Source of the DNA: Leptolyngbya ohadii IS1
GTDB lineage: Bacteria; Cyanobacteriota; Cyanobacteriia; Elainellales; Elainellaceae
Direction: 5' to 3'
Length of the DNA stretch: 64,000 nucleotides
NCBI RefSeq assembly: GCF_002215035.1
Contig: NZ_NKFP01000006.1
Span: 3,625,080-3,689,079 of the forward strand
In this document: in pieces, positions 2,413 to 46,469 of the stretch
How the letters are laid out: every line of letters begins with the position of its first letter
How positions within the stretch are numbered: position 1 is the stretch's first letter
Translations under genes and position numbers: made by a program
Notes under the pieces: generated by a model
The model's input: only the letters and a program-made list of their open reading frames with translations
What the model was told of the DNA's origin: nothing
The model's database searches: none

Positions 2413-2970
2413 TTAAATTCGGGCGGTTTGATGCTGCATTCGGCGGCGCAGCGGTGTATCAATTTCCGGCGGAGTCCTGCAAATGTATTCCATCACGCTG
2501 TCCTGATCCGCTGGTGATAAGCTCTCGTAGTAACGCACCGCAGACTCGATCGAAAAAGGAACGCCTAATTTTTCAGGGAAGTTGGGCGGAATTGCCGTCC
2601 AGATTGCTGCGGAAATTTCCTTTGATTCACACCATTCGCGCACGATTCGATCGATGTTCGTTTGTTCAGGATATTCTGCGATCGAACTGCGATTCTGCTC
2701 TAGATCGATATAGCCAATCTTGTCGATCGTAGTTCCTTCCCGCTGGCGTAAATCTTCGATCGCATCTTCCAGATGAGTACAAGAACTTCTTGCCCAGAGT
2801 GTCGGGCAGTTCACACCATTCTCTAAATCCAGGACAACGGTGAGTCGCTTATTGTCCGCAATTTTGGAAAATTCGAGCGACAAAACTGGACCATCGGTTT
2901 CCCAGGAGCCTTCATAAGAGAGACCATCTGGCTTCCAAATTAATGATCCCCAACCGAGTATTGCAATCAT
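2413..2970 (-). CDS. hypothetical protein, possible GGCT-like fold
   Basis: A 185-residue soluble protein with no signal peptide or membrane segment. Its start (ILGWGSLIWKPDGL) resembles the YGSLIW opening of gamma-glutamylcyclotransferase/ChaC-fold proteins, where a Gly-Ser-Leu loop binds the gamma-glutamyl group. I could not identify the catalytic Glu of that family with confidence, so an enzymatic role is only a suggestion. The rest is acidic and Trp-rich (ESAVRYYESLSPADQDSV). It is a single gene that converges on the upstream SDR gene. Confidence 0.6.
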   Translation of the reverse strand: MIAILGWGSLIWKPDGLSYEGSWETDGPVLSLEFSKIADNKRLTVVLDLENGVNCPTLWARSSCTHLEDAIEDLRQREGTTIDKIGYIDLEQNRSSIAEYPEQTNIDRIVREWCESKEISAAIWTAIPPNFPEKLGVPFSIESAVRYYESLSPADQDSVMEYICRTPPEIDTPLRRRMQHQTARI

Positions 2971-3203
2971 TCTCTTAATCGTTCGCTTTATATTTCACAG
3001 GATGTTCGAGGTTGAATCACTGAGAAGTGAGAAAATTCAGTGCAGATGCAATGTAACGGTAAATGAAGCTTGTCCGATCGTAACGAACACAATTCACAAA
3101 TAATTAGCTCCCAGGATAGAGCTTGTGTTGCCCGTTCTTTCCCCGTCCTTGCAAATTATTGAACGAACAGGACAGAATAAAGAAAACGATCGCCTCTCTC
3201 TCC

Positions 3204-3683
3204 ATGCACTCATCTCCATCTACTGCGACCTCTCACGCTGCATCTAATCCTGCATCCCAGCCGACCTGGAAAATCAAACTGCTCTACGACAGCGAATGTC
3301 CGCTCTGTGTCCGGGAAGTTAACTTTTTGCGCCGCAAAGATGCCGATCGCGGTCTGGTCGAGTTCGTCGATATCGCTGCGGACGATTACGATCTGGCGCT
3401 GCACGGCGGCATTGACTACGAAACCGCTATGGCACGAATTCACGCAGTTTTACCCGATGGGACGATCGTTAAAAACGTGGAAGTCTTCCGTCGCGTTTAC
3501 GAAGTGCTGGGCATGGGCTGGATCTATGCCATTACCAAACTGCCGATCGTGGGATGGCTTGCCGACGCGGTTTACGGAGTGTGGGCAAAATTGCGGCTAC
3601 GGTTAACTGGACGGGCGGATCTGGAAGCGATCGTGGCTGAACGAAATCAGAGACTTTGTGATACGGATCGCTGTCGCATCTAA
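3204..3683 (+). CDS. DCC1-like thiol-disulfide oxidoreductase family protein (DUF393)
   Basis: The sequence LLYDSECPLCVREVNFL near residue 30 is the hallmark of the DUF393/DCC family, a thioredoxin-like fold with a CxxC redox pair (here CPLC). The remainder (FVDIAADDY, VLPDGTIVKNVEVFRRVYE, GMGWIYAITKLP) follows the family pattern, with a short C-terminal hydrophobic/basic part. Proteins of this type occur widely in cyanobacteria and plastids; their partner is unknown. I start at ATG 3204 (MHSSPST) because the 27 residues gained from an in-frame ATG at 3123 are not family-like. No clear ribosome site supports either start. Confidence 0.8.
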   Translation: MHSSPSTATSHAASNPASQPTWKIKLLYDSECPLCVREVNFLRRKDADRGLVEFVDIAADDYDLALHGGIDYETAMARIHAVLPDGTIVKNVEVFRRVYEVLGMGWIYAITKLPIVGWLADAVYGVWAKLRLRLTGRADLEAIVAERNQRLCDTDRCRI

Positions 3684-3712
3684 TACAACAGAAGATTGGA
3701 CATAGAATCAAA

Positions 3713-3741
3713 GTCCCCCGCCTGTGGGGGATTTAGGGGGC
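3713..3741. repeat. Short palindromic repeat, CCCCC/GGGGG type (copy 1)
   Basis: GTCCCCC, a short spacer and GGGGGATTTAGGGGGC lie between two genes. A variant with the same layout occurs at 30932-30956. The C5/G5 arms can form a hairpin, so this may serve as a weak terminator for the DCC1-like gene, but there is no U-tract. It matches a type of short palindrome that I know to be dispersed in many cyanobacterial genomes. Confidence 0.6.
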
Positions 3742-3790
3742 AATGCAGGATCTAAATGACTTTTCAAACCGCGTTCAAGAAAAACCCCAG

Positions 3791-4432
3791 TCAAGCCTCC
3801 ACCCGATCGAGAACTGTCCCCTTCACACAGGTACTCGTCAGCGTCGTGCCCTGAAGATTCGCGCCTTCCAGTTCGGCACAGAGCAGATTTGCCCCGCTCA
3901 GATTCGCACCTGCTAAATTGGCGTCTCGCAGATCGGCTTCCTCCAGGTTTGCCCCAGTCAGGATCGCCCCCTGAAGGTCTGCCTGTGCCAGATTTGCGCC
4001 TGATAGATTCGCGCTGTTAAAGTTAACGCCTCGCAGGTCTGCCCCCCGCAGATCAACTCCCTGCAAGCTCACGCCCATCAAATTCGCACCGCTGAGGAAT
4101 GCGCCTGCCAGGGTAGTTTGTGCGAGCCTTGCCTGCATCAGATTCGCGCCGCGCAGGTTTGCCCCCCGCAGGTCTGCCTCGGATAGGTCTGCCTGCATCA
4201 GATTTGCGCCCACTAAATTCGCCCGCAGGTCGGCTCCCACTAGACAGCAGCCCATCAGGCTTGCACCGTCCAGATTCGCTCCAGTGAGGGTAGTTGCGGT
4301 CAGATCGGCTCCGTTCAGCGTTGCGCCTGCCAAATTAACCCGACTGAGATTTACCTTCGAGAGATCTTCGTCTTCCAGGTCTGCCCCTGCCAGCCGTTTT
4401 ACCTTTCCGGCGCGGATTGCTTCAATGTCCAT
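3791..4432 (-). CDS. Pentapeptide repeat-containing protein
   Basis: 213 residues, nearly all in A(D/N)LXX pentads after a short start (MDIEAIRAGKVKRL), predicting a right-handed quadrilateral beta-helix. Near residue 68-75 one unit is only four residues (ADLR, then ANLVG), so the helix register slips by one position there. No signal peptide is seen, so it is probably cytosolic. The gene follows the DICT/HD-GYP-like sensor gene by 26 bases on the same strand and is probably cotranscribed with it. Pentapeptide proteins serve as scaffolds, DNA mimics or regulators; nothing here picks among these. Confidence 0.88.
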   Translation of the reverse strand: MDIEAIRAGKVKRLAGADLEDEDLSKVNLSRVNLAGATLNGADLTATTLTGANLDGASLMGCCLVGADLRANLVGANLMQADLSEADLRGANLRGANLMQARLAQTTLAGAFLSGANLMGVSLQGVDLRGADLRGVNFNSANLSGANLAQADLQGAILTGANLEEADLRDANLAGANLSGANLLCAELEGANLQGTTLTSTCVKGTVLDRVEA

Positions 4433-4458
4433 AGTTTTACTTCTTCAGCAGGATAACC

Positions 4459-5880
4459 CTAGCGACTGGGTGTAATGGTTTCTTCTGGCTCGATTCCGAG
4501 TCCGCCCGACAGCAGTTCTTCCTCCGAGTGAGAGTCTAGTAGCCACAGTCCAGCGGCAATCTTAGGTAGGGCAACCGGAAGACTCATTCCCTGCTGCATC
4601 GCGCTCACCAGCAATCCCAGTGCCTCGACTAGCTTTGGGTCAAACTGCCCATTGGCTTTTTGCTGACAGGACTGGTACGCCTGCAACACCGTTTCCATTT
4701 CGTCTAATCCGCCCGATCGCCCCTGGGTCAGGTTTTGCTGAAAGTCTGCCAGCAGTGCCAGAATCCGGGATTCGAGGGGAATTTCATCGCCGGATAGCCC
4801 TGCGGGTGTGCCCGAACCGTCCCAGCATTCAGTTTGGTGAGTGAGAATTGTGGCGATCGCCTTGAGCCGCTGCATTTTCCGCAGCACTTTCACCCCTGGA
4901 ATAACCGGACTGGCGGGTGCAGCAAGATGATCAGAATCCCGCGAACTGAGAACGGTTTCGATCGGCTGAAGGAAAGCGATTCTGTGTAAAAGTCCCGCCA
5001 AGCGCAAACGGTGAAGCTGCCACGCCGGGAGGTCTAGAAGCTGTCCCATTGCCTCCGCCAGGGTTGCCACTTCCGCAGCCGCGTTGGGATTGCTGATGTC
5101 GGTCTGATCAATTAGTTGAGCAATTCGCAGGAGTGCCTGGAGTTCGTTGGAGGTCAGGTTGTTCGCCAGCGCATGGTGCTTTTGTTGGTCGGTCTGCTGG
5201 TTATCCTCCAGATAATCAATCACTCGCATCACAATGTCGCCCAGGTGATCAGCAGTTGGCTTGTTACAGAGGGCTTCGGGATGCTGCGATCGTTCAACAA
5301 TTTGCGTGAGCTGCTGCTGAAGCTGTGCCTGAAGAGTGGGGTTGTAGCGTCCCGCATGGTCGATCATCAGTCCAGCGGTTTCCTGGACCAGATTCGGCTC
5401 AAACGTCCAGAGTCCGTAGAATTTACGCTCCAGGTCGGTCTGCGGCTTGCCTGCGACTTCGTAATCTTCCTCAGAAAGCTCCTGGCACAGCACCATTGCC
5501 GTATAGTCTGGCGACACGATAATTAAGTGCCATTCCTGCGCCACTGGATCGGCGGGATCGAGCGTTACCAAATCCACATTTGCCTTGTGGCTCGTTGGAT
5601 GTTCGAGAAAGCCTGCGTCCGTGCCTGCCAGAATCACGACCTGCTGCGATCGATCGGCGATGTCTCCGTAGCGATCGGCTTCCTGGAGATACCATTTGCC
5701 CCGCTGAAATGCAGTTAGCATCATAGGCTGATAATCTGCCGCCAGGATCGCATCCTCCAGGGCGTGACAGAGGGCAACCAGCGTGTTTTTGTAGTACACC
5801 CCAAAGTTTAGCGGTCGCTTCCCCGGCGTGCCCGATCGATGTGCGTCACCCAGCTTTTGCAGAATGGAACCTTGCAACAT
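4459..5880 (-). CDS. DICT sensory domain protein with degenerate HD-GYP-like domain
   Basis: 473 residues. The N-terminal part (from FGVYYKNTLVALCHALEDAI to about residue 170) matches the DICT domain, a presumed sensor often linked to light- or c-di-GMP-signalling proteins. The C-terminal part is related to HD-GYP phosphodiesterases: HQTECWDGSGTPAGL near residue 346 followed by IPLESRILALLADF aligns with HHERWDGSGYP...IPLEARILAVADAF. The catalytic HD pair is absent (LLHRIAF near 295 where HDIGK is expected) and GYP has become GTP. Phosphodiesterase activity is therefore unlikely, and the module may bind a ligand or a partner. It forms a probable operon with the pentapeptide gene downstream. 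Confidence 0.8.
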   Translation of the reverse strand: MLQGSILQKLGDAHRSGTPGKRPLNFGVYYKNTLVALCHALEDAILAADYQPMMLTAFQRGKWYLQEADRYGDIADRSQQVVILAGTDAGFLEHPTSHKANVDLVTLDPADPVAQEWHLIIVSPDYTAMVLCQELSEEDYEVAGKPQTDLERKFYGLWTFEPNLVQETAGLMIDHAGRYNPTLQAQLQQQLTQIVERSQHPEALCNKPTADHLGDIVMRVIDYLEDNQQTDQQKHHALANNLTSNELQALLRIAQLIDQTDISNPNAAAEVATLAEAMGQLLDLPAWQLHRLRLAGLLHRIAFLQPIETVLSSRDSDHLAAPASPVIPGVKVLRKMQRLKAIATILTHQTECWDGSGTPAGLSGDEIPLESRILALLADFQQNLTQGRSGGLDEMETVLQAYQSCQQKANGQFDPKLVEALGLLVSAMQQGMSLPVALPKIAAGLWLLDSHSEEELLSGGLGIEPEETITPSR

Positions 5881-6056
5881 TGCGGCGAATTAAGCAAAAC
5901 TTCTAGCTTCTATCATCGCAAATGATTCCGTTTCTTCAAGGGGTCTCTTCGAGGCGATCGATCTCTTCAGGACGATCAATGAGGAGGCGTTCCCTTTCAG
6001 CTTTGGTCAGACGTTATGATAGAGATGTTAAGCAATGTAACACAGGTTAGAAGTTT

Positions 6057-7565
6057 ATGGTAGAGCAACACGGTCGGCGCGTGGTCGTGATTGGGGCAGG
6101 CATCGGCGGATTAACGGCAGCGGCACTCCTGGCGCATCGGGGAGATTCCGTCCTGGTACTGGATCAGGCGATCGTCCCAGGGGGCTGTGCTTCTACATTT
6201 AAGCGACGCGGCTTTATCTTCGATGTGGGCGCGACCCAGGTGGCGGGACTGGAACCGGGAGGAATTCATCACCGAATTTTCGAGGAACTGAATATCGAAC
6301 CGCCTGCCGCCACTCAAATCGATCCTGCCTGTGCGGTCTACTTGCCCGGAGAAATGGAACCGATCAACGTCTGGCGCGATCCGCAGCGATGGAAGACCGA
6401 ACGCCAGCGACAGTTTCCTGGCAGCGAACCCTTCTGGCAACTGATGGCAGATTTGTTTCGCTATAGCTGGGCATTTCAATCCCGTGACCCGGTGCTGCCG
6501 CCGCGCAACCTCTGGGACATCACGCAACTCGCCAAAGCCGTCCGTCCCGATACCCTGCTGACCCTGCCGCATACGTTCACGACCGTTGGACAGGTGTTGC
6601 GCTGGTATGGTTTGGGAAACGATCGCCGTCTCAAAACCTTTCTGGATATGCAGCTCAAGCTTTACTCCCAGGTAGACGCAGACCAAACCGCCCTCCTCTA
6701 CGCCGCCACCGCACTCGCCGTTTCCCAATCGCCCCACGGACTGTTTCACCTCCAGGGCAGTATGCAGACATTGAGCGATCGCCTCGTCGAATCTTTGGAG
6801 CGGGATGGGAGTCGATTACTCATGCGTCACACAGTTGAACAAGTCCACACAGAAGGACAGCGAGCCACCGCAGTTACGATTCGCAACCAGAAGACCGGAG
6901 AAGTTTGGACGGAGCCTGCCGATCATGTTGTCGCGAACGTCACGGTACAAAATCTGGTGAAGCTTTTGGGAGATGCCGCACCCTCTGGCTATCGCGATCG
7001 CGTCGAAAAACTGCCGCCCTCTTCAGGGGCTTTCGTGATCTACCTGGGCGTGAAACAGGATGCCCTGCCGGAAAACTGTCCGCCCCACCTGCAATTCCTC
7101 TACGACTACGCCGGACCGATCGCCGAAAATAATTCTCTCTTCGTTTCAGTCAGCAAACCCGGAGACGGACGCGCCCCCGCAGGTCATGCCACGATCGTCG
7201 CCTCTTCCTTCACCGATCCAAAAATCTGGTGGAATTGCTCGACCGAAGATTACCAGCAGCGCAAGCAGGAATATACGAATCAGGCGATCGATCGGCTCTC
7301 TCAATATTTCCATCTCACCCCTGAAACGATCGTGCATCAGGAAGCTGCAACCCCTCGCACCTTTGCCCACTACACCGGACGCAGTGAAGGTATCGTCGGC
7401 GGCATCGGTCAGCGTATTCCTACCTTTGGTCCCTTTGGATTTGCCACTCGAACTCCGGTGCGGTCGCTCTGGCTCGTCGGAGATTCAACCCATCCGGGAG
7501 AGGGAACGGCAGGGGTGAGTTATTCGGCTTTGACGGTGGTGAGGCAGATTGAGCAGCAGGGGTGA
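6057..7565 (+). CDS. crtD: C-3',4' desaturase CrtD (carotenoid oxidoreductase)
   Basis: FAD-dependent carotenoid desaturase of the CrtI/CRTISO superfamily, 502 residues. It has an N-terminal dinucleotide site (VVVIGAGIGGLTAAALLA, residues 9-26), then the family segment PGGCASTFKRRGFIFDVGATQ, and a C-terminal FAD-binding end (LWLVGDSTHPGEGTAGVSYS). The spacing and the long GATQVAGLEPGGIHHRIF stretch match the cyanobacterial CrtD group needed for myxol glycosides better than the carotene isomerase CrtH, whose N-terminus differs. CrtD introduces the 3',4' double bond in the acyclic end of monocyclic carotenoids at the membrane. It is transcribed alone, with chlI 1.2 kb downstream. Confidence 0.78.
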   Translation: MVEQHGRRVVVIGAGIGGLTAAALLAHRGDSVLVLDQAIVPGGCASTFKRRGFIFDVGATQVAGLEPGGIHHRIFEELNIEPPAATQIDPACAVYLPGEMEPINVWRDPQRWKTERQRQFPGSEPFWQLMADLFRYSWAFQSRDPVLPPRNLWDITQLAKAVRPDTLLTLPHTFTTVGQVLRWYGLGNDRRLKTFLDMQLKLYSQVDADQTALLYAATALAVSQSPHGLFHLQGSMQTLSDRLVESLERDGSRLLMRHTVEQVHTEGQRATAVTIRNQKTGEVWTEPADHVVANVTVQNLVKLLGDAAPSGYRDRVEKLPPSSGAFVIYLGVKQDALPENCPPHLQFLYDYAGPIAENNSLFVSVSKPGDGRAPAGHATIVASSFTDPKIWWNCSTEDYQQRKQEYTNQAIDRLSQYFHLTPETIVHQEAATPRTFAHYTGRSEGIVGGIGQRIPTFGPFGFATRTPVRSLWLVGDSTHPGEGTAGVSYSALTVVRQIEQQG

Positions 7566-7608
7566 AGGGGTAGATGGGTGGATGAGTGGGTGAGTGGGTG
7601 AGTGTTAG
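7562..7608. repeat. G-rich tandem spacer (GAGTGGGT-type units)
   Basis: Between crtD and the hydrolase gene lies a run of GATGGGTG and GAGTGGGT octamer-like units with few changes. It is not coding on either strand and looks like an unstable minisatellite. Confidence 0.6.
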
Positions 7609-7647
7609 GATTTCGGGGGTTGAGGCTGAAGTGAGGAATTTAAGCCA

Positions 7648-8484
7648 ATGCAGATGCCGCCTGATCAGTACATCAGCGTGAATGGAATTAGAACGCGCTA
7701 TTGGTCTGTGGGTGAAGCAGGCAGTCCCGTTCTTCTGATACATGGAGCAGGAGGTTCGGCTGACTACTGGTACAGGAATATTTTCAGCCTGGCGCAGCAG
7801 CACCAAGTCTACGCCCTAGATTGGGTGGGGTCAGGAAAATCCGATAAGCCCGAAGCAACCTACACCTATGAGGATTTGACGCAGTTTGCGTTGGCTTTTA
7901 TGGATGCTGTCGGTTTATCTAGCGCAAATGTCGTCGGAACTTCAGCGGGCGGTATTCTTGCGATGAAGCTTGCGTCCCAGTTTCCCGATCGCATTCAGAA
8001 ATTAGTTTTGTCTGGAAGTGCAGGTTTAGGGAAAGCCCTTGGACTTGGAATGCGTCTCTCTACAATTCCGGGCATTGGGGAGGCTTTGAATCGTCCGAGC
8101 CGCGCAACTGCTAAGTTCCTAATTCGCCAATGTGCCTATCGTCCAGAAACATTTCTGACGGATGATTTTGTAGATTTGGTTGAGCGGAACTTGCCTCTAC
8201 AAGTGTTGCAGTTTCAACTTCGCACATTTCGCACTGCTGCAAACTTTTCTGGGATGAAGTCAGACTTTCTAGCGCAGATTCGCAATAGTCTGCCAAAGAT
8301 TAAAGCTTCAACGCTCGTTTTATGGGGAAAGCAGGATCAAGTTACTTCTGTAAGCGGGGCTGAAATTGCAGCAAACGAAATTCCTGATGCAAAGCTGCAC
8401 CTATTCGACAATTGTGGACACTGGGCTTATTTAGAACATACAGAGGAATTTAATCAGCTTGTACTTGAGTTTTTGAAGGACTAA
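7648..8484 (+). CDS. alpha/beta fold hydrolase
   Basis: 278 residues with a complete alpha/beta-hydrolase triad. HGAGG forms the oxyanion loop near residue 34, the nucleophile elbow is GTSAGG with Ser99, the acid is Asp230 in LWGKQDQVTS, and the histidine is His258 in DNCGHWAYLE. A cap domain lies between about residues 125 and 205. No signal peptide is present. The substrate is unknown; related proteins include haloperoxidases, esterases and C-C bond hydrolases. Its codons are visibly more A/T-ending than those of crtD or chlI on either side, which may point to separate ancestry. Confidence 0.86.
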   Translation: MQMPPDQYISVNGIRTRYWSVGEAGSPVLLIHGAGGSADYWYRNIFSLAQQHQVYALDWVGSGKSDKPEATYTYEDLTQFALAFMDAVGLSSANVVGTSAGGILAMKLASQFPDRIQKLVLSGSAGLGKALGLGMRLSTIPGIGEALNRPSRATAKFLIRQCAYRPETFLTDDFVDLVERNLPLQVLQFQLRTFRTAANFSGMKSDFLAQIRNSLPKIKASTLVLWGKQDQVTSVSGAEIAANEIPDAKLHLFDNCGHWAYLEHTEEFNQLVLEFLKD

Positions 8485-8531
8485 GGAACCGCTAGCGACC
8501 TGATCATTCTGTTGCAACATCACATTCAGCT

Positions 8532-8557
8532 TCACATCAATGAATCACATCAATGAA
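8532..8557. repeat. 13 bp tandem duplication
   Basis: TCACATCAATGAA occurs twice, head to tail, in the spacer before chlI. A second exact tandem duplication lies at 8603-8630. Confidence 0.85.
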
Positions 8558-8602
8558 CAGGTGAGGGGACAGGTAAGGCAATGGAGGTCAGAAGGGCGGC
8601 AA

Positions 8603-8630
8603 GGATTGTAAAGAAAGGATTGTAAAGAAA
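8603..8630. repeat. 14 bp tandem duplication
   Basis: GGATTGTAAAGAAA occurs twice, head to tail, about 80 bases before the probable chlI -10 box. Such exact doublets suggest recent slippage. Confidence 0.85.
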
Positions 8631-8707
8631 AGCTTCTCACTGGGATTTCGATCGAGGGCGCGGGTGAGTGGTGAATCGATAGTATGTCACAATAGATAAC
8701 GGTTATT

Positions 8708-8713
8708 TATACT
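8708..8713 (+). promoter_or_regulatory. Probable -10 box of chlI
   Basis: TATACT lies 23 bases before the GTG start of chlI in an A/T-rich stretch. No convincing -35 box is seen, as is usual for many cyanobacterial promoters. This would give a short leader. Confidence 0.4.
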
Positions 8714-8736
8714 TTGTTGTCGTTACAGGTAGTTCT

Positions 8737-9822
8737 GTGAGTCCCACCGTTTCAGCCAGCCCCTCTGCCAAAGCTACGACCCGCCGCGCCGTTTTCCCGT
8801 TTACCGCGATCGTGGGTCAGGAAGAAATGAAGCTTGCGTTGCTCCTCAACGTGATTGACCCCAAAATTGGGGGCGTGATGATCATGGGCGATCGGGGAAC
8901 CGGAAAGTCCACCACGATTCGTGCCCTGGCGGACGTGCTGCCTGAAATGGACGTCGTGGCAGGCGATCCGTTCAACAGCCATCCGACTGACCCCAGTTTG
9001 ATGAGCGATGCGGTCAAGCAGCAAATCGAGTCTGGTGAATCGATCCAGACCACGAAGAAAAAAGTGACGATGATCGACCTGCCCCTGGGCGCAACGGAAG
9101 ACCGGGTGTGCGGCACGATCGACATCGAAAGAGCCTTGTCGGAAGGCGTAAAGGCATTTGAACCGGGACTGCTGGCGCAGGCAAATCGCGGCATTCTCTA
9201 CGTGGATGAAGTTAACCTGCTGGACGATCACCTTGTAGACGTGCTGCTGGACTCCGCTGCGTCTGGCTGGAATACGGTTGAGCGGGAAGGGATTTCGATT
9301 CGTCACCCGGCAAGATTTGTGCTGGTGGGTTCCGGCAACCCCGAAGAAGGTGAACTGCGTCCCCAGTTGCTCGATCGCTTTGGCTTACACGCCGAAATCC
9401 GCACGGTGAAAGAACCGACCCTGCGCGTTCAGATTGTGGAACAGCGATCGGACTTTGACCAGAACCCGGAAGAATTCCTGGTGAAATACCAAACGGAGCA
9501 GGATGCGCTTCAGCAAAAGCTGATTAATGCTCAAACTCTCCTGCCCTCGGTGAAGATCGATCAGGATCTCAAGATCAAAATTTCCCAGGTCTGCGCCGAA
9601 CTGGATGTAGACGGTCTGCGCGGCGATATCGTCACCAACCGCACCGCCAAGGCACTCGCCGCTCTAGAAGGACGGGCAGAAGTCACGGTGGAAGACATTC
9701 AGCGGATTATCGTCATGGCACTGCGCCACCGTCTGCGGAAAGACCCCCTGGAGTCGATCGATTCTGGTTACAAGGTGGGTAAGGTCTTTGCTCAGGTGTT
9801 TGGTCTGCCTGTGCCGGAATAA
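8737..9822 (+). CDS. chlI: Magnesium chelatase ATPase subunit I
   Basis: ChlI/BchI, the AAA+ ATPase subunit of the ChlI-ChlD-ChlH complex that inserts Mg2+ into protoporphyrin IX, the first committed step to chlorophyll. 361 residues, as usual. Walker [10 protein letters not shown] is near residues 50-58, Walker B is in [13 protein letters not shown] near 150-160, and the sensor segments [20 protein letters not shown] are intact. The start is GTG (8737), since no ATG lies between the leader and the conserved [13 protein letters not shown]. It is a single gene that converges on the aldo/keto-reductase homologue 15 bases away. Confidence 0.97.
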
Positions 9823-20080: not shown

Positions 20081-20241
20081 GAGCTTCTTGAATTTCATCG
20101 TACTGGAGAGATTAGAGAAGGTCAAGTGATCATTTAAGTATTTGATTAAACGCAAAATTACTTAGAATAGAATAGTGAAGCGGTGTAAAGCCTTTCCTTG
20201 GGTGATCGAGCAGCAGGAAGACAGTGCAGCAGGAAGACAGT

Positions 20242-20568
20242 ATGGAAACGGAGCAGCGGGCAAAAATATTTGCGGCTTTGGGTGATCCAACCCGGCTGCG
20301 AATTGTGGAACGATTGGCAACGACGGAAGGGGAGATGAGCGGTTCAGAGATTGCGGCACAGCTTGAGATTAGCCTTGCCCTGTTCTGCCATCACTCCAGA
20401 ACGCTAACGGAAGCGGGACTGCTGCTCACCCGTAAAGAAGGACAAACTAAGTTTCACGCCCTGAATCGATCGCTGCTCAAGGAGTGCTTTACTAGTCTGT
20501 TCACTTGCTCAGTGTTTCGGGCAAGTCTCCGAGAGAGTATTGCTGCCCAGATCTCGCAGATGGGCTGA
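20242..20568 (+). CDS. ArsR/SmtB family transcriptional regulator
   Basis: 108-residue winged-helix regulator: LGDPTRLRIVERLATTEGEMS, then SEIAAQLEISLALFCHHSRTLTEAGLL as the recognition helix region, then RKEGQTKFHALN as the wing. The ELCVCDL metal site of ArsR/SmtB is absent. Cysteines occur instead in LFCHHS and in the C-terminal LLKECFTSLFTC, so the signal may be thiol-reactive compounds rather than metals (inference). The ATG at 20242 has GGAAG 5 bases upstream and is preferred to a GTG at 20224. The last 60 bases overlap the convergent YbjN-like gene. Confidence 0.9.
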   Translation: METEQRAKIFAALGDPTRLRIVERLATTEGEMSGSEIAAQLEISLALFCHHSRTLTEAGLLLTRKEGQTKFHALNRSLLKECFTSLFTCSVFRASLRESIAAQISQMG

Positions 20569-21036
20569 GCTGTCCAGATTTACGGCTCGTTTACCGCCAA
20601 ACTGCTCTGCAATCCAGTCGTCGTAGGTATCGGCGATCGTTACCACGGACAAAATACAGGTTTGCAGCTCCATCAAGTCCATATTTTCGCCGCCCAGCAC
20701 ACTGTCGCTAAACCGCACCTCACCCATATCGCCCAGGTGAAAGGCTCCGAACCGCATCCGGGAATTTTCAGTGAGCAAGTAGTGCATCAGCTCCGGCGTC
20801 GTCTCCGTTTCAACCGTGACACAGCTACAGGCACGCACGATCGCCAGCTCTCGCGTTTCCCACGGATGCACCTCCCATGCCAGTACCTCAATCTCGACCT
20901 TGGCAGAACCATAGGTCAAACAAAAAGTCGGCTCGTCCGTCGCAGCTTTCATCTGGTCTTTGAACAGAGCGGAACTCGTCAGATAATCTCCTACTTTGCG
21001 ATAGGTGAGTTCCTGGGCAGGGTTAAGAAAATGCAT
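20509..21036 (-). CDS. YbjN / type III chaperone-like domain protein
   Basis: 175 residues. The arrangement (ALFKDQMKAATDEPTFCLTYGSAKVEIEV, then LLTENSRMRFGAFHLGDMGEVRFSDSVLGG, then a DDWIAEQFGG helix) matches the YbjN/T3SS-chaperone-like fold widespread in cyanobacteria, thought to bind peptides or partner proteins. It is the last gene of the DevC-DevC-DevA group, 39 bases after the ATPase gene, so it may assist that exporter. Its 3' end overlaps the convergent ArsR gene by 60 bases; the overlapped part encodes a poorly conserved-looking tail (SSAHLRDLGSNTLSE). Confidence 0.7.
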   Translation of the reverse strand: MHFLNPAQELTYRKVGDYLTSSALFKDQMKAATDEPTFCLTYGSAKVEIEVLAWEVHPWETRELAIVRACSCVTVETETTPELMHYLLTENSRMRFGAFHLGDMGEVRFSDSVLGGENMDLMELQTCILSVVTIADTYDDWIAEQFGGKRAVNLDSSAHLRDLGSNTLSETCPKH

Positions 21037-21075
21037 AAAGGCAGTGCATAAAAGGAGGGCACAGAGGAAGGAGTG

Positions 21076-21924
21076 CTACAAAATAAACATCTTCTGGTCT
21101 AACTTCTTCGGATCATGGGTTTCAGCAAAGCGAGCGGGACTTTCGTCCGACTCCAGATAACCATCCACCAGATTGATAATGCGATCGGCAACGTCGAGGA
21201 TGCGGTTGTCGTGCGTCACCATGAGAATGGTGCAGTTCTGCTCTTTGGCAAGCTGTTGCAGCAGAGTTACGACTTCACGACCAGACTCTTTATCCAGAGC
21301 GGCAGTGGGTTCGTCTGCCAGAATGAGAGTGGGTTTGTTGACCAGGGCACGGGCGATCGCAACGCGCTGTTTCTGTCCGCCGGAGAGGGAATTGGGTTTG
21401 TAGGTGAGGCGATGACCTAAGCCCAGGCGTGTCAGGATGTCGGTGGCAAGCTGCCGTTTTTCTCGCCAGTTCTGGGTCAGTTCGACCGCCATTTCGACGT
21501 TTTGCATTGCCGTCAGCGACTCAAACAGGTTGTGCGCCTGGAAGATAAAGCCAATGTTGCGTCGCACTCGCACCAGCTCAGATTTACCCAGTCCCACAAT
21601 TTCCCGTCCCAGCACTTTAAGGCTGCCTTCCTGCACCGTTCGCAACGCCCCCATCAGGGTTAGCAGAGTAGTTTTACCGGAGCCAGATGGACCCGTCATA
21701 ATCACAATCTGTCCCTTGTACAGATCCAGGCTGATGTCGTAGAGAACCTGTTTCCGCAGATCACCCTGTCCGTAGAAATAGTTGAGACTGCGAATTTGAA
21801 CGGCAACCTCTTCGGGCAGGGCATTTTCCCGTATGGACACCTGGGAATCTAGTTCCCTGGAAAGCATTTGGGCTGAGCTGCTTACCTGCGGCATATCGGC
21901 TTGAAAATCAAGTTCTTTTTTCAT
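21076..21924 (-). CDS. DevA-type ABC transporter ATP-binding protein
   Basis: 282 residues. ABC ATPase with Walker A GPSGSGKTT near residue 79, Q-loop FIFQAHNLFESLT, signature LSGGQKQRVAIAR near 180, Walker B LILADEPTAALD near 200 and the H-loop in MVTHD. The insertion YFYGQGDLRKQVLYDISLDLYKG is typical of the DevA/MacB-like group that serves DevBC exporters. It has an unusual N-terminal extension of about 40 residues. It is third in the operon after two DevC-type permeases (77 bases from the second), with which it should form the complex. Confidence 0.92.
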   Translation of the reverse strand: MKKELDFQADMPQVSSSAQMLSRELDSQVSIRENALPEEVAVQIRSLNYFYGQGDLRKQVLYDISLDLYKGQIVIMTGPSGSGKTTLLTLMGALRTVQEGSLKVLGREIVGLGKSELVRVRRNIGFIFQAHNLFESLTAMQNVEMAVELTQNWREKRQLATDILTRLGLGHRLTYKPNSLSGGQKQRVAIARALVNKPTLILADEPTAALDKESGREVVTLLQQLAKEQNCTILMVTHDNRILDVADRIINLVDGYLESDESPARFAETHDPKKLDQKMFIL

Positions 21925-22001
21925 CTGAACCTCTGGGAAAACTGCGCCTCTGCTAAGGAATTCAGGCTAGCTATGCCCTGCTTGGAAAACTAGAGAAATC
22001 T

Positions 22002-23177
22002 TTATGAGCCAAACACCTCCGCCGGATCGGACTGCTGCACTCGACGCACAGCGATTACGCCCGAAATTAAGCACATCAGAAACGTGGCAATCATAAGATT
22101 GAAGATGCGCGAAGGGGTCATGACCATCAGGAGCCCGGTGGCATTGCGCGTCAGGCTGTATAGCCCATAGCTGATGAAGCATCCCGGCACAAACCCCAGA
22201 AACGCCAAAATTGCCGCCTGCTGCAAAACCACAGCGAATAAATAGCGGTTCGAGTAGCCGATCGCCTTCAGCGTTGCGTATTCCACCCAATGATCGGCAA
22301 CATCGGTATAGAGGATTTGGTACACCAGAATGACCCCTACCATGAAGCTCATCGTGGTCAGCAGGGAAAAGACAAAGCCAATGCTGGTTTCATTGCGCCA
22401 GTAGTCCAGTTCCTTCTGAAAAAATTCCTGCTTGCTGTACACCGAAATATCCTTTGGCAGGCGATCGCGCAGGACTTTCACCAGTTCATCCACATTTTTC
22501 CCTGCCGCCACACGCAGCAGACCAATATCCACCGTATTCAGTCCACGGCTTTCCTCATCGGGACCTAGATCGGCAAAGTAGCGCAAAAAGTTTTGGTCAC
22601 TCATCACCACATTGCCGTTACCGGAAGCAAAGTCTGTACCTAAACTAAACGTACCCACCACCATCACCCGCTTTTCAGACAATTCGGTCACAACCCCCGC
22701 CTGTTTGAGTCCGACCTCCGATCGGGATTTGTCGTCAATCAACACCGTCCAGGGCAACTGCAAATCCTGTTGATGCTGCTGGATTCCGGGCAGAGGCAGC
22801 ACATCATCGCTGGGGTTAAATGCCAGCACCCGCAACGGACGAGTTCGCTTGCTCACCGGGTCTTTCCAGTTTCCGGTATTGATATAGAGCGGATATGCCG
22901 CCATCACACCATCAAATGCCTCTGCCTGATAGAGTCGTCTGCGGGCAAACTGTACCGGGACAAACATGTTGGTTTTTGTCCGACTCACGATCACAATGTC
23001 GCCGTTTAGTAGCTTCAAAAGCTGTACCTGGCTGTCGTACAAGGCATTCTCAAAACCGCGAAACATAAACATCAGTACCACCGCAAAGCCAACTCCCGCG
23101 ATCGCCGTTAGCAGTTTGCGCCGCTCGTAAGTGAGGTTGAACCAGGCAAGCGGAGTTCGCCGCTGAAAGAAATTCAT
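22002..23177 (-). CDS. devC: DevC-type ABC exporter permease (second of two)
   Basis: 391 residues with the DevC/FtsX layout: one N-terminal membrane helix (LTAIAGVGFAVVLMFMF, residues about 23-40), a large periplasmic domain of about 220 residues (to about 265), then three membrane helices ending with RRVQQSDPAEVF. The start LAWFNLTYERRKLLTAIAGV is the family signature. It is a clear paralogue of the gene just upstream, from which only 2 bases separate it, suggesting that the two permeases form a heterodimer. Known DevBCA systems export glycolipids or other envelope compounds together with a TolC-type channel. Confidence 0.9.
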   Translation of the reverse strand: MNFFQRRTPLAWFNLTYERRKLLTAIAGVGFAVVLMFMFRGFENALYDSQVQLLKLLNGDIVIVSRTKTNMFVPVQFARRRLYQAEAFDGVMAAYPLYINTGNWKDPVSKRTRPLRVLAFNPSDDVLPLPGIQQHQQDLQLPWTVLIDDKSRSEVGLKQAGVVTELSEKRVMVVGTFSLGTDFASGNGNVVMSDQNFLRYFADLGPDEESRGLNTVDIGLLRVAAGKNVDELVKVLRDRLPKDISVYSKQEFFQKELDYWRNETSIGFVFSLLTTMSFMVGVILVYQILYTDVADHWVEYATLKAIGYSNRYLFAVVLQQAAILAFLGFVPGCFISYGLYSLTRNATGLLMVMTPSRIFNLMIATFLMCLISGVIAVRRVQQSDPAEVFGS

Positions 23178-23179
23178 GC

Positions 23180-24322
23180 TTAAAACACCTCCGCCGGATC
23201 AGTGGTAATCACGCGCCGTACGGAAAGCAGTGCCGAAATGCTACACATGATGATGGTCAGGAGCAGCACGAACACCATCCGCCCCAATTCCATCGACATT
23301 GGCAGTCCGCCGCTGGTTGCTTTCTCGGTCAGGTCGTACAGCCCCAGCGACACCGCAAAGCCAGGAATATAGCCCAGCACCGCTAGAATCACCGCTTCCT
23401 GCAACACAATCCCAAACAAAAAGCGGCTGCGATACCCCATTGCCTTGAGGGTCGCATACTGTTTCATGTGATCGGAGATGTCGGTATAGAGGATTTGATA
23501 GACGATTACGACACCAACCACGCAGGACACAACCACGCCCATCGTGAAGATGAATCCGGTCGAAGTCGTATTGATCCAGTAGTCCCGCTCGCGAGCAATG
23601 ATGGTCTCCCGCGTGTACACTGAGACATCCGGTGGCAGGATGCGCTGAAATTCCGTGGCGATCGCACCTGGATCAACCCCCGGCTTCAGCTGGATCAGTC
23701 CCAGGTTGATCAGGCTAAGGGGTAAGGGGTCAAAGTAGCGGCGGAAATTCTGATCGCTCATAATCAGCGTGCCGTCTGAAGCAAACCCACCGCCCAGGGA
23801 ATACTGTCCGCCGATCGTAATTTGCCGTCGCTTTGCTTCTGTGGTCGTGCCCGTGGTCTGCGATCCAAACTCAGGACGAGACAGGCGATCGATCAGCGCC
23901 GTATCCGATCGTTTGAGTGCTGCCAGGTTTTCTGGATTCTTCAGATCAGGCAGAAGGAACACTGGATCTTCTGGATTAATGCCATAGACAAAGATGGCTC
24001 GGTTGGTTCGCGTTTCTGGATTGCGCCACTGCAAGTAGCCCGCATAGAGGGGCATTGCCCGCTCGACCCCGTTGACCCCCGCTGCCTGATAGAGGCGATC
24101 GATCGAAAAGGATTTGGTAGTGCTGATGTCTAGACTCTGAGGCGAGATCAGAAAGATATCTGCATTGATCTGCTCGTACACCAGTGCTGCCGATCGCGAC
24201 AAAGACCCAAGGAACCCCAGGTTCATGAATACCAGAATTACCGCAAAGGCAACGCCTGCAATTGCCACTACCAAACGGTTTTTCTCATGCGTCAAATTCA
24301 ACCAGGCGATCGGGGTTCTCAT
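23180..24322 (-). CDS. devC: DevC-type ABC exporter permease (first of two)
   Basis: 380 residues, same topology as its downstream neighbour: IAWLNLTHEKNRLVVAIAGVAF at the start, a periplasmic domain to about residue 255, three C-terminal helices and the ending RRVITTDPAEVF. It leads a minus-strand operon of two permeases, one DevA-type ATPase and a YbjN-like protein. No membrane-fusion protein (DevB) is encoded beside it, unlike standard devBCA loci; one from elsewhere or none would have to serve. Confidence 0.9.
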   Translation of the reverse strand: MRTPIAWLNLTHEKNRLVVAIAGVAFAVILVFMNLGFLGSLSRSAALVYEQINADIFLISPQSLDISTTKSFSIDRLYQAAGVNGVERAMPLYAGYLQWRNPETRTNRAIFVYGINPEDPVFLLPDLKNPENLAALKRSDTALIDRLSRPEFGSQTTGTTTEAKRRQITIGGQYSLGGGFASDGTLIMSDQNFRRYFDPLPLSLINLGLIQLKPGVDPGAIATEFQRILPPDVSVYTRETIIARERDYWINTTSTGFIFTMGVVVSCVVGVVIVYQILYTDISDHMKQYATLKAMGYRSRFLFGIVLQEAVILAVLGYIPGFAVSLGLYDLTEKATSGGLPMSMELGRMVFVLLLTIIMCSISALLSVRRVITTDPAEVF

Positions 24323-24584
24323 GCAAACCAGCTATGCCTACCAAGCGGGCGATCGAGCAAGGATCGGAATGTAAAATTCTTTTAACCATTTTAAGGTTTC
24401 CAAAGTGCGATCGTCTCCCCCGATCGGGTAGTGGCGGTTCTCCACCAGTTCAAGCTGAACCTATCAGGTCGTCAGCATTCAGCAAAATAGCAGTCCAGAA
24501 GCAAGACAGAGACACGAGCCAATAAGACAACAAAAAAGGCGGCTCTATAACCGCCTTACATTGCTTATTTAAGTTCGTGAAAGA
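24323..24584. other. Intergenic region, devC operon promoter and atp operon 3' end
   Basis: 262 bases. The left part should hold the promoter of the DevC operon (minus strand), and the right part holds the terminator of the ATP synthase operon. No gene is seen. Confidence 0.5.
24530..24557 (-). terminator. Rho-independent terminator of the ATP synthase operon
   Basis: Minus strand: AAGGCGG, an 8-base loop and CCGCCTT (24557-24536), followed by TTTTGTTG. A 7 bp GC-rich stem with a U-tract, 28 bases beyond the atpC stop. Confidence 0.92.
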
Positions 24585-25535
24585 TTAACCGAGTGCGTTT
24601 GCACCGCCTACCACTTCCAGAATTTCCTGGGTAATGGCAGCCTGACGCGCCTTGTTGTAGCCGATCGTCAGGGTCTTGATTAATTCCTTCGCGTTGTCGC
24701 TGGCGTTGTTCATTGCCGTCATCCGAGCCGCCAGTTCGCTTGCCGCAGACTCTTGCAGGGCACGGAGCAACTGGTTATTCAGATAAAGGGGCAGCAGCGC
24801 ATCCAGAATTTGGACGGGATCTTGCTCAAAGATCATGTCTCTGGGCAGGGGAGCCAGATTGCTAGCCGCCGCTTTTTCCCGCTCCACCGCAAAGCTACCG
24901 CCGCGAGTCGTTAGACGGAAAATCTCGTCGTCCTGCGCTTCCAGACCTTGAGCATCCAGGGGCAGCAGGGTTTGAACAACCGGACGAGAACTCACCAGCG
25001 AAACAAACTTTGTGTAGACCAGCTCCACCCGATCGACCGTTTCCGACAGGAAAAGTGACAGTAGCTCATCCGCAATCTGGGAAGCCTCCGCCGCCGTGGG
25101 AACCTGCTCCAGTCCGGTGAAGGTAGCATCAATCACCTGATCACGACGCTGGAAGTACTGGGTTGCCTTACGCCCAATCAGCACAAAGCGACAGTCCAAA
25201 CCTTCCGCCTTCAGTTCCTTTGCACGAGCCTCGGCACGACGAATCACGTTGGCATTGTAGCCGCCGCACAGACCTCGATCGCCTGAAACCACCAGCAGTC
25301 CCACCGTCTTAACGTCCCGCTGACGTAGCAGAGGCAGAGTCACATCCTCGAACCGCAGACGGGTTTGCAGACCGTAAAGCACCTGCGCTAGCCGATCGGC
25401 AAACGGACGGGTTGCAATCACCTGTTCCTGGGCACGACGCACCTTCGCCGCAGCCACGAGCCGCATTGCTTCTGTAATTTTGCGCGTATTTTTGACCGAC
25501 TGAATCCGATCGCGAATCTCTTTTAGATTTGGCAT
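24585..25535 (-). CDS. atpC: ATP synthase F1 subunit gamma
   Basis: 316 residues; central rotor stalk of F1 (called atpG in E. coli). The N-terminal [31 protein letters not shown] helix and the C-terminal helix [26 protein letters not shown] that fills the alpha/beta cavity are present. The region around [17 protein letters not shown] is the extra segment found in cyanobacterial and plastid gamma, which helps to limit ATP hydrolysis in the dark. The plastid redox cysteines are absent, as expected. Last gene of the operon, followed by a terminator. Confidence 0.97.
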
Positions 25536-36687: not shown

Positions 36688-38352
36688 TTAGTCTTTGGGC
36701 ACTATGACACCAATGAGATGAGTGCCTGTTAAGTTAGCTCCTGTGAGATTAGCCGCTCCTAGATGAACATCGGCGAGAGTAGCATTTGTTAGGTTTGCGT
36801 TTTGTAGATCGCTCCGCTTCAAGTCAACAGACCGCAGCCCAGCGTTCGTCAAATTAACGTTCGTTAAATCGCTCGAATGCATAGAGCTTCTAACCAATCT
36901 AACTCCTTCTAGATTGGCTTGGCTGAGATTAGCGTTATTGAAGGAGCTATATTTTAGTTTCGCATTTGCTGCATTAATTCCATCCATTTGGGCATACATA
37001 AAATTTGCAGTCTCCCATTTGCTGCCCTTCAAATTTGCACCTCTTAATCGGGCATAGCTCAGGGTTGTAGCACGCACATCAACATTTTCCAGGTTGGCAT
37101 ATTCTAGTTTTGCAGATGACAGATCAACGCTAACTAAGCGGGCATCTTTCAAATTAGCGCGATCGAGATTAGCATCCTTTAAGTTTGTGTCTGTCAAATT
37201 AGCTCCCTGTAAATTGACTGACTGCAAATCCGCATTTTCTAGATTGGCAGAGGTCAGATCAACACCTTGTAGATCAAGATTTGCTAATCGAGCAGAGCTG
37301 AGATTGCAATTTCGACACTCCCGATTCTTAACCAAGCGTTGAATGAGAGCTGCCTGTAAGTCCTTACTTGCGGGAATGGTTGTAGGACGATCGGCTGGTT
37401 TAAAAGGGCTGGTCGGCTGAAAAAACGCGAGGTAGGCACAAACGATTCCACCGATAACTAGGCTCAGGCTGCTTGCACCCAGGAGCAAATTTTCTGCGAG
37501 CCGCTTTGCCCGATCGACTCTCACTTCGATCGGACGTAATGCTTCTAATGCAGCAGCAGCGTCAGGATAGCGATGTTTGGGATGCGGTTCGACTAGTTTG
37601 CTTAGCCAGATGATGAAACTAGGATTCAAGTGGGGCAGATGTTGTTTGAGGTTGAAACGGTAGCGATCGTCCAGCAGTTTGTGAATTTCAGTCGATCGGG
37701 TTCCGGTGAGAAGGCAAATAAGCGTCGCACCCAGGCTGTAGAGATCGGAGGCGGCTGTGAGTGGTCGTCCAAACTGTTCTTCGGGCGGGATAAATCCGGG
37801 GGTTCCGGCGGCAACGCTGCTGAGTGCTAATTCACCGCCTCGGATGCGGGCAAAGCCAAAGTCGATCAGGTAGGCGTTGAGTTGTTTGTCCACCAGAATA
37901 TTTTCGGGTTTAATATCGCGGTGGATGATGGGCGGAGTCCGTTTTTGCAGATAGACCAGAATTTCCAGCAGTGAAATTGCAATCCGTTTGATCGCTTCTG
38001 GTGTAAAGCTCGATCGCTCTGCCAGTGAGGGGGCATCGTGATATTGCTGAACCAGACAGAACCCCGACGGCGTTTCAAACGAGTCTAGATAGCGAGGAAT
38101 TCGGGGATGGTTGAGCTGCTGTAGAACTTCGATTTCGCGCTCGTGTGCCTTGTAGCCCGACCAGCTATTTTCAGCAGCGGCAAAGCGAAACTCCTTCAGC
38201 ACTACTGGGGAGCGATCGGTTGTCGGTTCTGCCTCAGAAGGGTCGATCGCTTGGGCAAGGTAGGTAATGCGTCCTCCCTCCCAATTTCGTCCCAGCTCAC
38301 GTAAAATTTGATACCTTTTGTTAAGCGTATTTGCGGATTGATTCAGAGACAT
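36688..38352 (-). CDS. Serine/threonine protein kinase with C-terminal pentapeptide repeats
   Basis: 554 residues. Kinase domain at about 13-275: an atypical Gly loop (LGRNWEGG), Lys53 in VVLKEF, HRD at 144-146 (IIHRDIKPEN), DFG at 164-166 and GTPGFIPPEE as the activation end. One membrane helix follows at about 288-312 (LLLGASSLSLVIGGIVCAYL), then about 35 A(N/D)LXX pentads from residue 345 to the end. The kinase is therefore cytosolic and the beta-helix probably lies on the other side of the membrane (inference). It resembles the SpkB-like kinases of cyanobacteria. Single gene convergent with apcE. Confidence 0.9.
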   Translation of the reverse strand: MSLNQSANTLNKRYQILRELGRNWEGGRITYLAQAIDPSEAEPTTDRSPVVLKEFRFAAAENSWSGYKAHEREIEVLQQLNHPRIPRYLDSFETPSGFCLVQQYHDAPSLAERSSFTPEAIKRIAISLLEILVYLQKRTPPIIHRDIKPENILVDKQLNAYLIDFGFARIRGGELALSSVAAGTPGFIPPEEQFGRPLTAASDLYSLGATLICLLTGTRSTEIHKLLDDRYRFNLKQHLPHLNPSFIIWLSKLVEPHPKHRYPDAAAALEALRPIEVRVDRAKRLAENLLLGASSLSLVIGGIVCAYLAFFQPTSPFKPADRPTTIPASKDLQAALIQRLVKNRECRNCNLSSARLANLDLQGVDLTSANLENADLQSVNLQGANLTDTNLKDANLDRANLKDARLVSVDLSSAKLEYANLENVDVRATTLSYARLRGANLKGSKWETANFMYAQMDGINAANAKLKYSSFNNANLSQANLEGVRLVRSSMHSSDLTNVNLTNAGLRSVDLKRSDLQNANLTNATLADVHLGAANLTGANLTGTHLIGVIVPKD

Positions 38353-43333: not shown

Positions 43334-43344
43334 GTCTTAAAACA

Positions 43345-45351: not shown

Positions 45352-46469
45352 TCACCCCTCAAAGAATCTGGTCGCAGTGCGTTAAGGAACTCGCCCAATT
45401 CAGGCGCGATCGTCTCACCGTTGCCCTGGCATTTCTATTGCCCTTACTCACGCTATTTATCTTTGGCTATGCCATTCGTTTAGAGGCAAAAAATATTCCG
45501 CTGACGGTGCAGGATTTGGATAATACGCCGTTAAGCCGCAGCTATATTGAAAGGCTCTATGCCACAAATCAGTTAAATTTAGTCGAACGTCCGATTAATC
45601 AATCGATTACTGAAACGATCGATCAAGGAAAAGCGAAAGTAGGCATTGTCATTCCGCCGGATTTTTCGCGCAAACTCAAGGACGGTGAATCGGTTGCCGT
45701 GCAGGTAATTATTGACGGAACGGATGTGAATAATGCGCGGGTGATTCGCGGCAGCATTGAGTCCGCAACGCAGTATTTCGGGCGAATTTCGGGACTGCGA
45801 CAGGGGCAAATTGCGCCATTGATCGACGTTCAAACGCGCATCTGGTTCAATCCGGGACGCAAGGAATCGCTGTACATTGTGCCGGGAACCTGTGCAGTGA
45901 TTTTGTGGATCTATCCGTCGCTATTGTCCTCAATGGCAATGGTGCGCGAGAAGGAACAGGGGACGATTTTGCAGGTTTATGCTTCCAGTTTAAGCGCGAT
46001 CGAACTGATTCTCGGTAAGTCATTTGCCTATATGATTGTGGGTTTACTCGAAGGCTTTTTTATTATTGGCGTGAGTGCCATTTTATTTGACCTACGATTT
46101 GCGGGCGATCCCACACCATTCCTAATCGGTACGCCGATTTATACGCTGGTTGCTGTGATGTTCGGCACAATGATTGGAACGCGGGTTTCCAACCAAAATG
46201 CAGCAGTACAGGCAGTTGCAACGATCGGCTTTCTCACAGCGTTTTTGCTGTCAGGATTCATTTATCCGCTCAGCAATATCCCCTTTCCCCTATCGCTAAT
46301 TTCTAATATTGTGCCTGCTCGGTATTACATTCCTATTATTCGCGATGCTTTTGTACGAGGGACGGGGTGGACAGGCGTTTGGTGGGCGGTGCTGATGCTG
46401 ATTTTGTTGGGACTCTTTTTATTTAATGCGGCGCGACGCAATTTAAGCCGGATGCAGTTGCCGGACTAG
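45348..46469 (+). CDS. ABC-2 type permease (YbhS-like)
   Basis: 373 residues. Membrane helix near residue 24-44 (VALAFLLPLLTLFIFGYAI), an approximately 150-residue extracytoplasmic domain (TVQDLDNTPLSRSYIERL and so on), then five C-terminal helices with VREKEQGTILQVYASSLSAIELILGK, the family motif. I start at ATG 45348 (MITPQRIWSQ), which overlaps the ATPase stop by 4 bases; a longer in-frame start inside the ATPase gene is not plausible. It pairs with the next permease. Confidence 0.93.
   Translation: MITPQRIWSQCVKELAQFRRDRLTVALAFLLPLLTLFIFGYAIRLEAKNIPLTVQDLDNTPLSRSYIERLYATNQLNLVERPINQSITETIDQGKAKVGIVIPPDFSRKLKDGESVAVQVIIDGTDVNNARVIRGSIESATQYFGRISGLRQGQIAPLIDVQTRIWFNPGRKESLYIVPGTCAVILWIYPSLLSSMAMVREKEQGTILQVYASSLSAIELILGKSFAYMIVGLLEGFFIIGVSAILFDLRFAGDPTPFLIGTPIYTLVAVMFGTMIGTRVSNQNAAVQAVATIGFLTAFLLSGFIYPLSNIPFPLSLISNIVPARYYIPIIRDAFVRGTGWTGVWWAVLMLILLGLFLFNAARRNLSRMQLPD

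Follow-up and report, generated by a model that had tools for sequence, protein, structure and literature searches.

The exporter operon

We analysed a 64,000-nt stretch of the genome of Leptolyngbya ohadii IS1 (contig NZ_NKFP01000006.1), called the window below, and in it an operon for a putative ATP-binding cassette (ABC) exporter with two DevC-type permeases. Exporter positions are given in window coordinates. The genome of the window (7.9 Mb, 8 contigs) is denoted G000; other G and L handles refer to related genomes and loci. The listing of open reading frames (ORFs) places four consecutive genes on the minus strand, and a terminator-like element lies between atpG and the first of them:

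devC1 (C1), 23180..24322, minus strand: 380 aa, DevC-type FtsX-like permease with four transmembrane (TM) segments; TIGR01185, 397 bits
devC2 (C2), 22002..23177, minus strand: 391 aa, DevC-type permease, second subunit; TIGR01185, 386 bits
devA, 21076..21924, minus strand: 282 aa, ABC ATPase; TIGR02982, 351 bits; PF00005
Y, 20509..21036, minus strand: 175 aa, YbjN/TY-Chap1-like protein; PF22551, 37.5 bits; PF10722, 22.2 bits
Terminator-like hairpin with a T run, 24536..24557, minus strand: between atpG and devC1

Permeases: Both proteins exceed the NCBIfam cut-off for devC (397 and 386 vs. 290 bits, TIGR01185), and models of LolC and LolE are absent among the NCBIfam matches of either at E 0.01. 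The stop codon of devC1 is separated from the start codon of devC2 by 2 bases (TAA, gc, ATG), and the two proteins are about 43% identical, which confirms the two adjacent paralogues of the original prediction.

DevA: The ATPase scores above the DevA cut-off (351 vs. 296 bits, TIGR02982). The match starts at residue 42, after an extension of about 40 aa at the N-terminus. With the LolD model it reaches 204 bits, which is under the cut-off of 308. Permeases and ATPase are separate ORFs, unlike the fused MacB.

Y: The protein scores 37.5 bits with PF22551 (TY-Chap1, cut-off 27) and is barely at the cut-off of PF10722 (YbjN, 22.2 vs. 22 bits). The coordinates and family cut-offs thus agree with the original prediction of two DevC permeases, a DevA ATPase and a YbjN-like gene at 20509-24322.

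The hairpin suggests that the exporter genes and the atp genes belong to separate operons; with 3 such sites in the scanned region against 4.7 expected in shuffles, it is weak evidence alone. On the minus strand, a promoter scan of 20100-24700 gave no site. Y overlaps a convergent gene for an ArsR/SmtB-type regulator (20224-20568) by 60 bases at their 3' ends (20509-20568).

The predicted order devC-devC-devA-YbjN was compared in seven related contigs. C1-C2-A was found in all of them, whereas Y came next in two (L007, L011). Because the C1-C2-A order is kept throughout, the adjacency of two devC genes is not accidental; together with the shared phylogeny of C1 and C2 described below, this rules out a chance neighbourhood.

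A DevB orthologue encoded in trans

The original prediction stated that the membrane-fusion protein DevB is missing. This holds for the exporter operon and for the ORFs listed around it, in which no devB was found, but not for the genome. Above the cut-offs, G000 contains 7 DevC, 6 DevB and 6 DevA genes. Five of the DevB genes sit in ordinary single-devC operons, and the sixth stands alone on the same contig, about 300 kb from the exporter operon (G000:C6:3346556-3347719). In relatives, the gene immediately upstream of devC1 is DevB (L008-L011 and L013). The orphan DevB of G000 is 62-68% identical to these devC1-linked proteins and 36% to a neighbouring paralogue, and in the DevB tree it nests with the linked DevBs in a clade of 18 rows (support 98/97). 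Judged by identity and phylogeny, the orphan is the orthologue of the devB which precedes devC1 in relatives.

The relatives set comprised 40 genomes, G000 included, and C1 is present in 23 of them (C1-positive genomes). The score gap at this boundary runs from 548 to 494 bits, the 494-bit match being a second copy in G009. A DevB that accompanies the exporter from elsewhere in the genome had been named beforehand as the observation that would speak against a DevB-less pump, and this is what we found: a DevB orthologue is present in all 23 C1-positive genomes. Among the 17 C1-negative genomes it is found in one (G028), as a weaker match in a single-devC operon. devB adjoins devC1 upstream in 19 of the 23, with no more than about 130 bases between the two genes. 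G020, in which devB is one ORF away from devC1, brings the in-operon total to 20/23; the intervening ORF (L109, 5192-5758, minus strand) encodes 188 aa and overlaps devB and devC1 by 4 bases each.

devB is unlinked in the remaining three C1-positive genomes, G000, G001 and G006. These three are monophyletic in the DevB tree (100/99) and also in the C1 and the C2 part of a permease tree of 63 rows, and their devB genes occupy one shared site, between a MATE gene and a gene with an AH_C domain. The simplest history for this pattern is a single relocation of devB in the common ancestor of the three genomes. On these comparisons, the window exporter probably has a dedicated DevB adaptor, which is encoded in trans. 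The departure of devB from the operon is therefore no evidence for an adaptor-free pump.

It had also been proposed that the chaperone-like Y closes the operon in place of DevB. Y and devB occur together in the operon in 8 of the 20 genomes with an in-operon devB, and a Pfam search found no membrane-fusion-protein domain in Y. Hence, Y as a substitute for DevB is ruled out; its membership in the exporter system, which is the part of the proposal that stands for many carriers, is treated below.

Two permease subtypes from one duplication

C2 is found in 21 of the 23 C1-positive genomes and in none of the 17 C1-negative genomes (search at E 1e-140). A full C2 is lacking in G015, where it is in pieces, and in G024, an assembly of 85% completeness. 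Counting the pieces in G015, C2 follows devC1 in 21/23 genomes, and devA then follows in 19/23. The exceptions for devA are G021, where the contig ends, G027, with none up to the contig end, and G008 and G024, with none beside C1. The operon is dispersed in G008 (L105, L170, L189), with B-C1, C2 and Y at three places, all retained. G009 carries a second, rearranged set on contig C11 (L120, L171), in which C2'-A' lies next to B' on the opposite strand and C1' is about 11 kb away; this second system also has C1, C2, A and B, and its permeases are 50-53% identical to those of the window.

For the signatures, the distances and the main tree of the permeases, proteins shorter than 370 aa (C1 and the C2 pieces of G015) and the long-branch row L062, a weak devC match, were left out. 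In addition, C1 and C2 were thinned to about every second row and outside DevCs were added for a tree of 45 DevC proteins, which covers the distant genome G328 and the second G009 set. In this tree, 16 other DevCs lie outside a joint clade of C1 and C2 (100/98), and within it both subtypes are monophyletic (100/99). The stems are of similar length (0.45 for C2, 0.42 for C1). The phylogeny called for in the original prediction thus groups both permeases when L062 is omitted.

TM1: The residue at position 34 is Asn in 26/26 C1, Phe in 24/24 C2 and Gln in 16/16 other DevCs. The window C1 has N34, and the equivalent residue of the window C2 is F39. The 24 C2 rows of this signature count do not include the unlinked C2 of G008.

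Subtype sites: At 25 alignment sites, residues are at least 90% conserved inside each subtype yet differ between C1 and C2. The residue which is usual in other DevCs is kept by C1 at 12 of these sites, by C2 at 6 and by neither at 7.

TM3-TM4 loop: An insertion of 2 residues is present in 25/26 C1, among them that of the window, and absent from all 24 C2 and all 16 other DevCs.

Periplasmic insertion: All 24 C2 proteins carry an insertion in the periplasmic region (7 residues in 23, 5 in one), which is absent from all 26 C1. Among the other DevCs, 15/16 have none of it and one has a single residue. In the window C2, it consists of 7 residues around LGPDE.

Pairwise distances were compared in a mirror-tree test with 20 of the 23 C1-positive genomes, as G008, G015 and G024 have no usable C2 row. 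C1 and C2 distances correlate with r 0.75, and the partial r given AtpA is 0.71; none of 2000 permutations was as high. Given AtpA, the partial r is 0.47 for C1-DevB and 0.55 for C2-DevB (0/2000 permutations).

Mean column identity is 81% for C2 and 82% for C1 (7 rows each). AlphaFold2 models have a mean predicted local distance difference test (pLDDT) score of 85 for C1 and 83 for C2. The matches of the predicted folds in the PDB are LolE, MacB and HrtB for C1 (best E 3e-15) and MacB, LolC, LolE and HrtB for C2 (best E 2e-18), and the listed full-length structural matches have TM-scores of about 0.3-0.7 by query length. Both permeases are thus predicted to adopt type VII folds.

According to the tree, C1 and C2 are the products of one old devC duplication, and both copies have been kept. 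From this duplication, the retention of both copies and the reciprocal subtype-specific residues and insertions, we infer that C1 and C2 act as a heteromeric permease. The heterodimer of the original prediction is supported to this extent, with a putative C1-C2 contact.

The YbjN/TY-Chap1-like gene

Y orthologues (E <1e-40) are present in 19/23 C1-positive and in 0/17 C1-negative genomes. Eleven of the 19 are in the operon and eight elsewhere, two of these on the same contig as C1 at about 30 kb (G017) and about 38 kb (G008). As Y is kept even where it is unlinked, a functional tie is indicated and not mere proximity. Next to the eight unlinked Y genes, no partner recurs at most of the loci (in one locus, L195, Y itself is unlisted). 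Five C1-negative genomes and G027 have weaker homologues (33-40% identity, cut-off E 1e-15), as does G036 alongside its orthologue.

In a sample of 386 genomes of the phylum, Y (E 1e-30) is present in 4/7 C1-positive and in 0/379 C1-negative genomes. The searches with C1, Y and DevB were taken to cover the same 386 genomes, as the size is equal and the handles agree. The four Y carriers (G000, G008, G029, G036) are all within the 23 genomes described above; the sample therefore adds specificity (no Y without C1) and no new positive. Fisher p values for the association of Y with C1 are 7e-8 and 4e-8, uncorrected and from data that overlap (the 40 relatives and the 386-genome sample).

Y has no PDB match by phmmer, and its profile matches the structure 2PLG weakly (E 0.054). 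2PLG is a cyanobacterial YbjN protein as cited in the AmyR structure paper (PMC5398634), which describes a type III secretion system (T3SS)-chaperone-like dimeric fold for the YbjN family and its role as unsettled. A link between a YbjN protein and a DevBCA-type exporter was not found in the accessible parts of the open-licence PMC literature searched. The co-occurrence supports Y as part of the exporter system in many of its carriers, and by analogy with its fold family, Y is probably a cytosolic accessory of the exporter.

Distribution and related operons

Of the 25 genomes assigned to family f1 (G000 included), 20 have C1, as do 3 of the 15 from outside f1. In the phylum sample, it is present in 7/386 genomes (E 1e-140) with five family codes, and G328 is a distant carrier (491 bits). 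The phylum-wide searches with C1 and DevB scored the best 4-5 candidates per genome. Other, weaker DevB matches sit in single-devC operons (G028, G280, G313, G125, G106). In G068, devB is separated from a single devC by another ORF, and the site in G364 has one devC and devA, with devB not among the ORFs kept by the ORF selection. As these other DevB matches are mostly accompanied by a single devC, the two-permease form looks derived.

The distant operon of G328 (L119, G328:C7:39400-48500) has the order B-C1-C2 at 2743-9055. Its ATPase is part of a 902-aa fusion of a major facilitator superfamily (MFS) protein, an ABC ATPase and a response-regulator receiver, which adjoins a KR-ACP-thioesterase polyketide protein. 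This context hints that some members may export a secondary metabolite.

Further arrangements of related genes were noticed. G000 has near-identical devBCA copies on two contigs (L060, G000:C1:1532843-1535804; L061, G000:C7:7655-10616), each with a divergent TetR-family gene (Pfam check for L060). In G031 (L086, 1501-3741), a 747-aa open frame joins an HlyD-type adaptor to a DevC-type permease, which makes it a DevB-DevC fusion. Within the window, a cluster at 42089-47632 encodes an HlyD adaptor, a double-ATPase ABC protein and two ABC-2 permeases, and an HlyD-RND pair follows at 48128-52950. Elsewhere in the window (36688-38352, minus strand), a protein kinase domain and pentapeptide repeats are combined in one protein.

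Interpretation and alternatives

We consider it probable that the operon encodes a tripartite (type VII) exporter of the DevBCA/MacB type with a LolCE-like heterodimeric permease, a DevB supplied in trans and a YbjN-type accessory in many members. The best reading of the gene orders is an ancestral operon devB-devC1-devC2-devA, which in many members goes with an accessory YbjN-like gene.

The alternative with the strongest claim, although unlikely, is that there are two separate exporters, one with a C1 and one with a C2 homodimer, which have different substrates and share DevA and DevB. DevC and DevA of Anabaena, with a single DevC, are reported as dimers (PMC6161253), and G008 keeps its C1 and C2 genes far apart. 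Against two homodimers, the operons provide one devA and one devB per permease pair, C2 is found without C1 in none of 21 genomes, and at a TM1 position that is otherwise invariant, C1 and C2 have each acquired a residue of their own; the correlation of their distances also survives the AtpA control, though shared operon inheritance can contribute to it. Much less probable is a C2 that serves as a regulatory paralogue or is decaying, with C1 as the active permease. C1 does keep more of the usual DevC residues at the subtype sites (12/25 vs. 6/25), and the G015 assembly has its C2 split into two frames. However, C2 is conserved as well as C1, has a stem of similar length and retains the predicted type VII fold.

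Least credible is the exporter of the original prediction with a different periplasmic partner or none, which we reject on the genome data. It would account for the ORF listing, which shows no devB in the neighbourhood of the window operon, and LolCDE, which works without a membrane-fusion adaptor, demonstrates that such type VII systems exist (PMC5985334). Yet every C1-positive genome of the 40 has the DevB orthologue, in the operon in 20 of 23 cases, and the three unlinked devB genes fall within the subfamily of the linked ones and sit together at a single type of new site, common to all three genomes.

Several observations weigh against the heterodimeric, Y-assisted exporter preferred here. 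Two homodimers sharing DevA and DevB would equally keep both permease copies. In G008, about 700 kb separate C1 from C2, and C2 has no adjoining devA. The trees unite C1 with C2 only when L062 is omitted; an earlier DevC tree of 63 rows which included L062 placed C2 with other DevCs and C1 apart. Correlated distances need not mean contact, since co-inheritance or co-transfer of the operon raises them too. For Y, the cut-off was chosen post hoc at a gap between E 2.6e-45 and 2.5e-25, and at E 1e-15 homologues are found in 20/23 C1-positive and 5/17 C1-negative genomes. Y is missing from four of the 23 (G019, G021, G023, G027) and from the three C1-positive genomes that are new to the phylum sample (G248, G311, G328). 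An AtpA tree (39/40 genomes; G033 had no match) gave four independent pairs on supported branches, with Y changing with C1 in 3.5 on average and against it in 0; this comparison is underpowered (p 0.125).

Relation to known systems and proposed mechanism

DevBCA: DevBCA-HgdD and its paralogues in Anabaena sp. PCC 7120 are described as glycolipid or drug exporters (PMC6161253, PMC8277102). The window exporter shares with DevBCA the DevC-type permease, the separate DevA and the DevB membrane-fusion protein, all of the same NCBIfam families. It differs in its two paralogous permeases, the YbjN-like gene and, in the clade of the window, the unlinked devB. As it has two conserved permease subtypes instead of a single homodimeric DevC, it is a variant and not a canonical member. 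HgdBC is a reported case in which the parts of a DevBCA-like system are scattered over the genome; its cluster has no ATPase gene (PMC6161253).

LolCDE: Two paralogous 4-TM permeases with one ATPase and a predicted type VII fold are common to both systems. Unlike LolCDE, the window-type exporter is accompanied by a DevB orthologue, and its proteins stay outside the LolC, LolE and LolD families by the models used.

MacAB-TolC: This is likewise a tripartite type VII system with an adaptor, and MacB is among the top structural matches of the predicted permease folds. However, MacB combines ATPase and permease in one polypeptide and is a homodimer, whereas the window exporter consists of three polypeptides with two different permeases.

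YbhGFSR: The ABC-2 cluster at 42089-47632 resembles YbhGFSR-type exporters. Such exporters likewise have an adaptor and two different permease subunits, but the YbhGFSR-like cluster has ABC-2 permeases and a double ATPase, whereas the window permeases are of the FtsX/DevC type.

YbjN and TY-Chap chaperones: Y resembles these through its TY-Chap1 score above the cut-off, its YbjN score just at the cut-off and the weak 2PLG match.

No description of a two-DevC exporter was found in the open-licence PMC literature searched, so far as its text was accessible.

Type VII systems work through TM stalks whose ATP-driven motion is passed on to the periplasmic domains; those with an adaptor push the substrate into a TolC-type channel, and the permeases may be homodimers (MacB, FtsX) or heterodimers (LolCE) (PMC5985334). 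By analogy with LolC/LolE, C1 and C2 would form a heterodimer on a DevA dimer, and ATP-driven TM-stalk motion would pump its periplasmic domains (mechanotransmission). A DevB oligomer supplied in trans would couple this pumping to a channel, presumably of the TolC/HgdD type. Y, as a member of a T3SS-chaperone-like fold family, may act on the cytosolic side, where it would hold a peptide-like substrate or regulate the pump.

A bolder reading, which is possible but doubtful, is that these exporters are a distinct tripartite type VII class which depends on DevB, has an obligate LolCE-like heterodimer and uses, in most carriers, a dedicated YbjN/T3SS-chaperone-like protein in the cytosol to deliver a substrate that is a peptide or lipopeptide. 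On this reading, a pump with an adaptor would have acquired asymmetric permeases independently, and secretion chaperones would after all exist among the YbjN proteins. In the systems reviewed in PMC5985334, the MacB homodimer uses an adaptor and the LolCE heterodimer does not; DevB-C1-C2-A combines an adaptor with an apparent heterodimer. With its clean subtype-specific residues, this natural system would make it possible to ask whether each half of a mechanotransmission pump has its own job, such as substrate capture or adaptor contact. For the YbjN family, whose function is unsettled, the co-occurrence with this exporter offers a concrete, testable partner.

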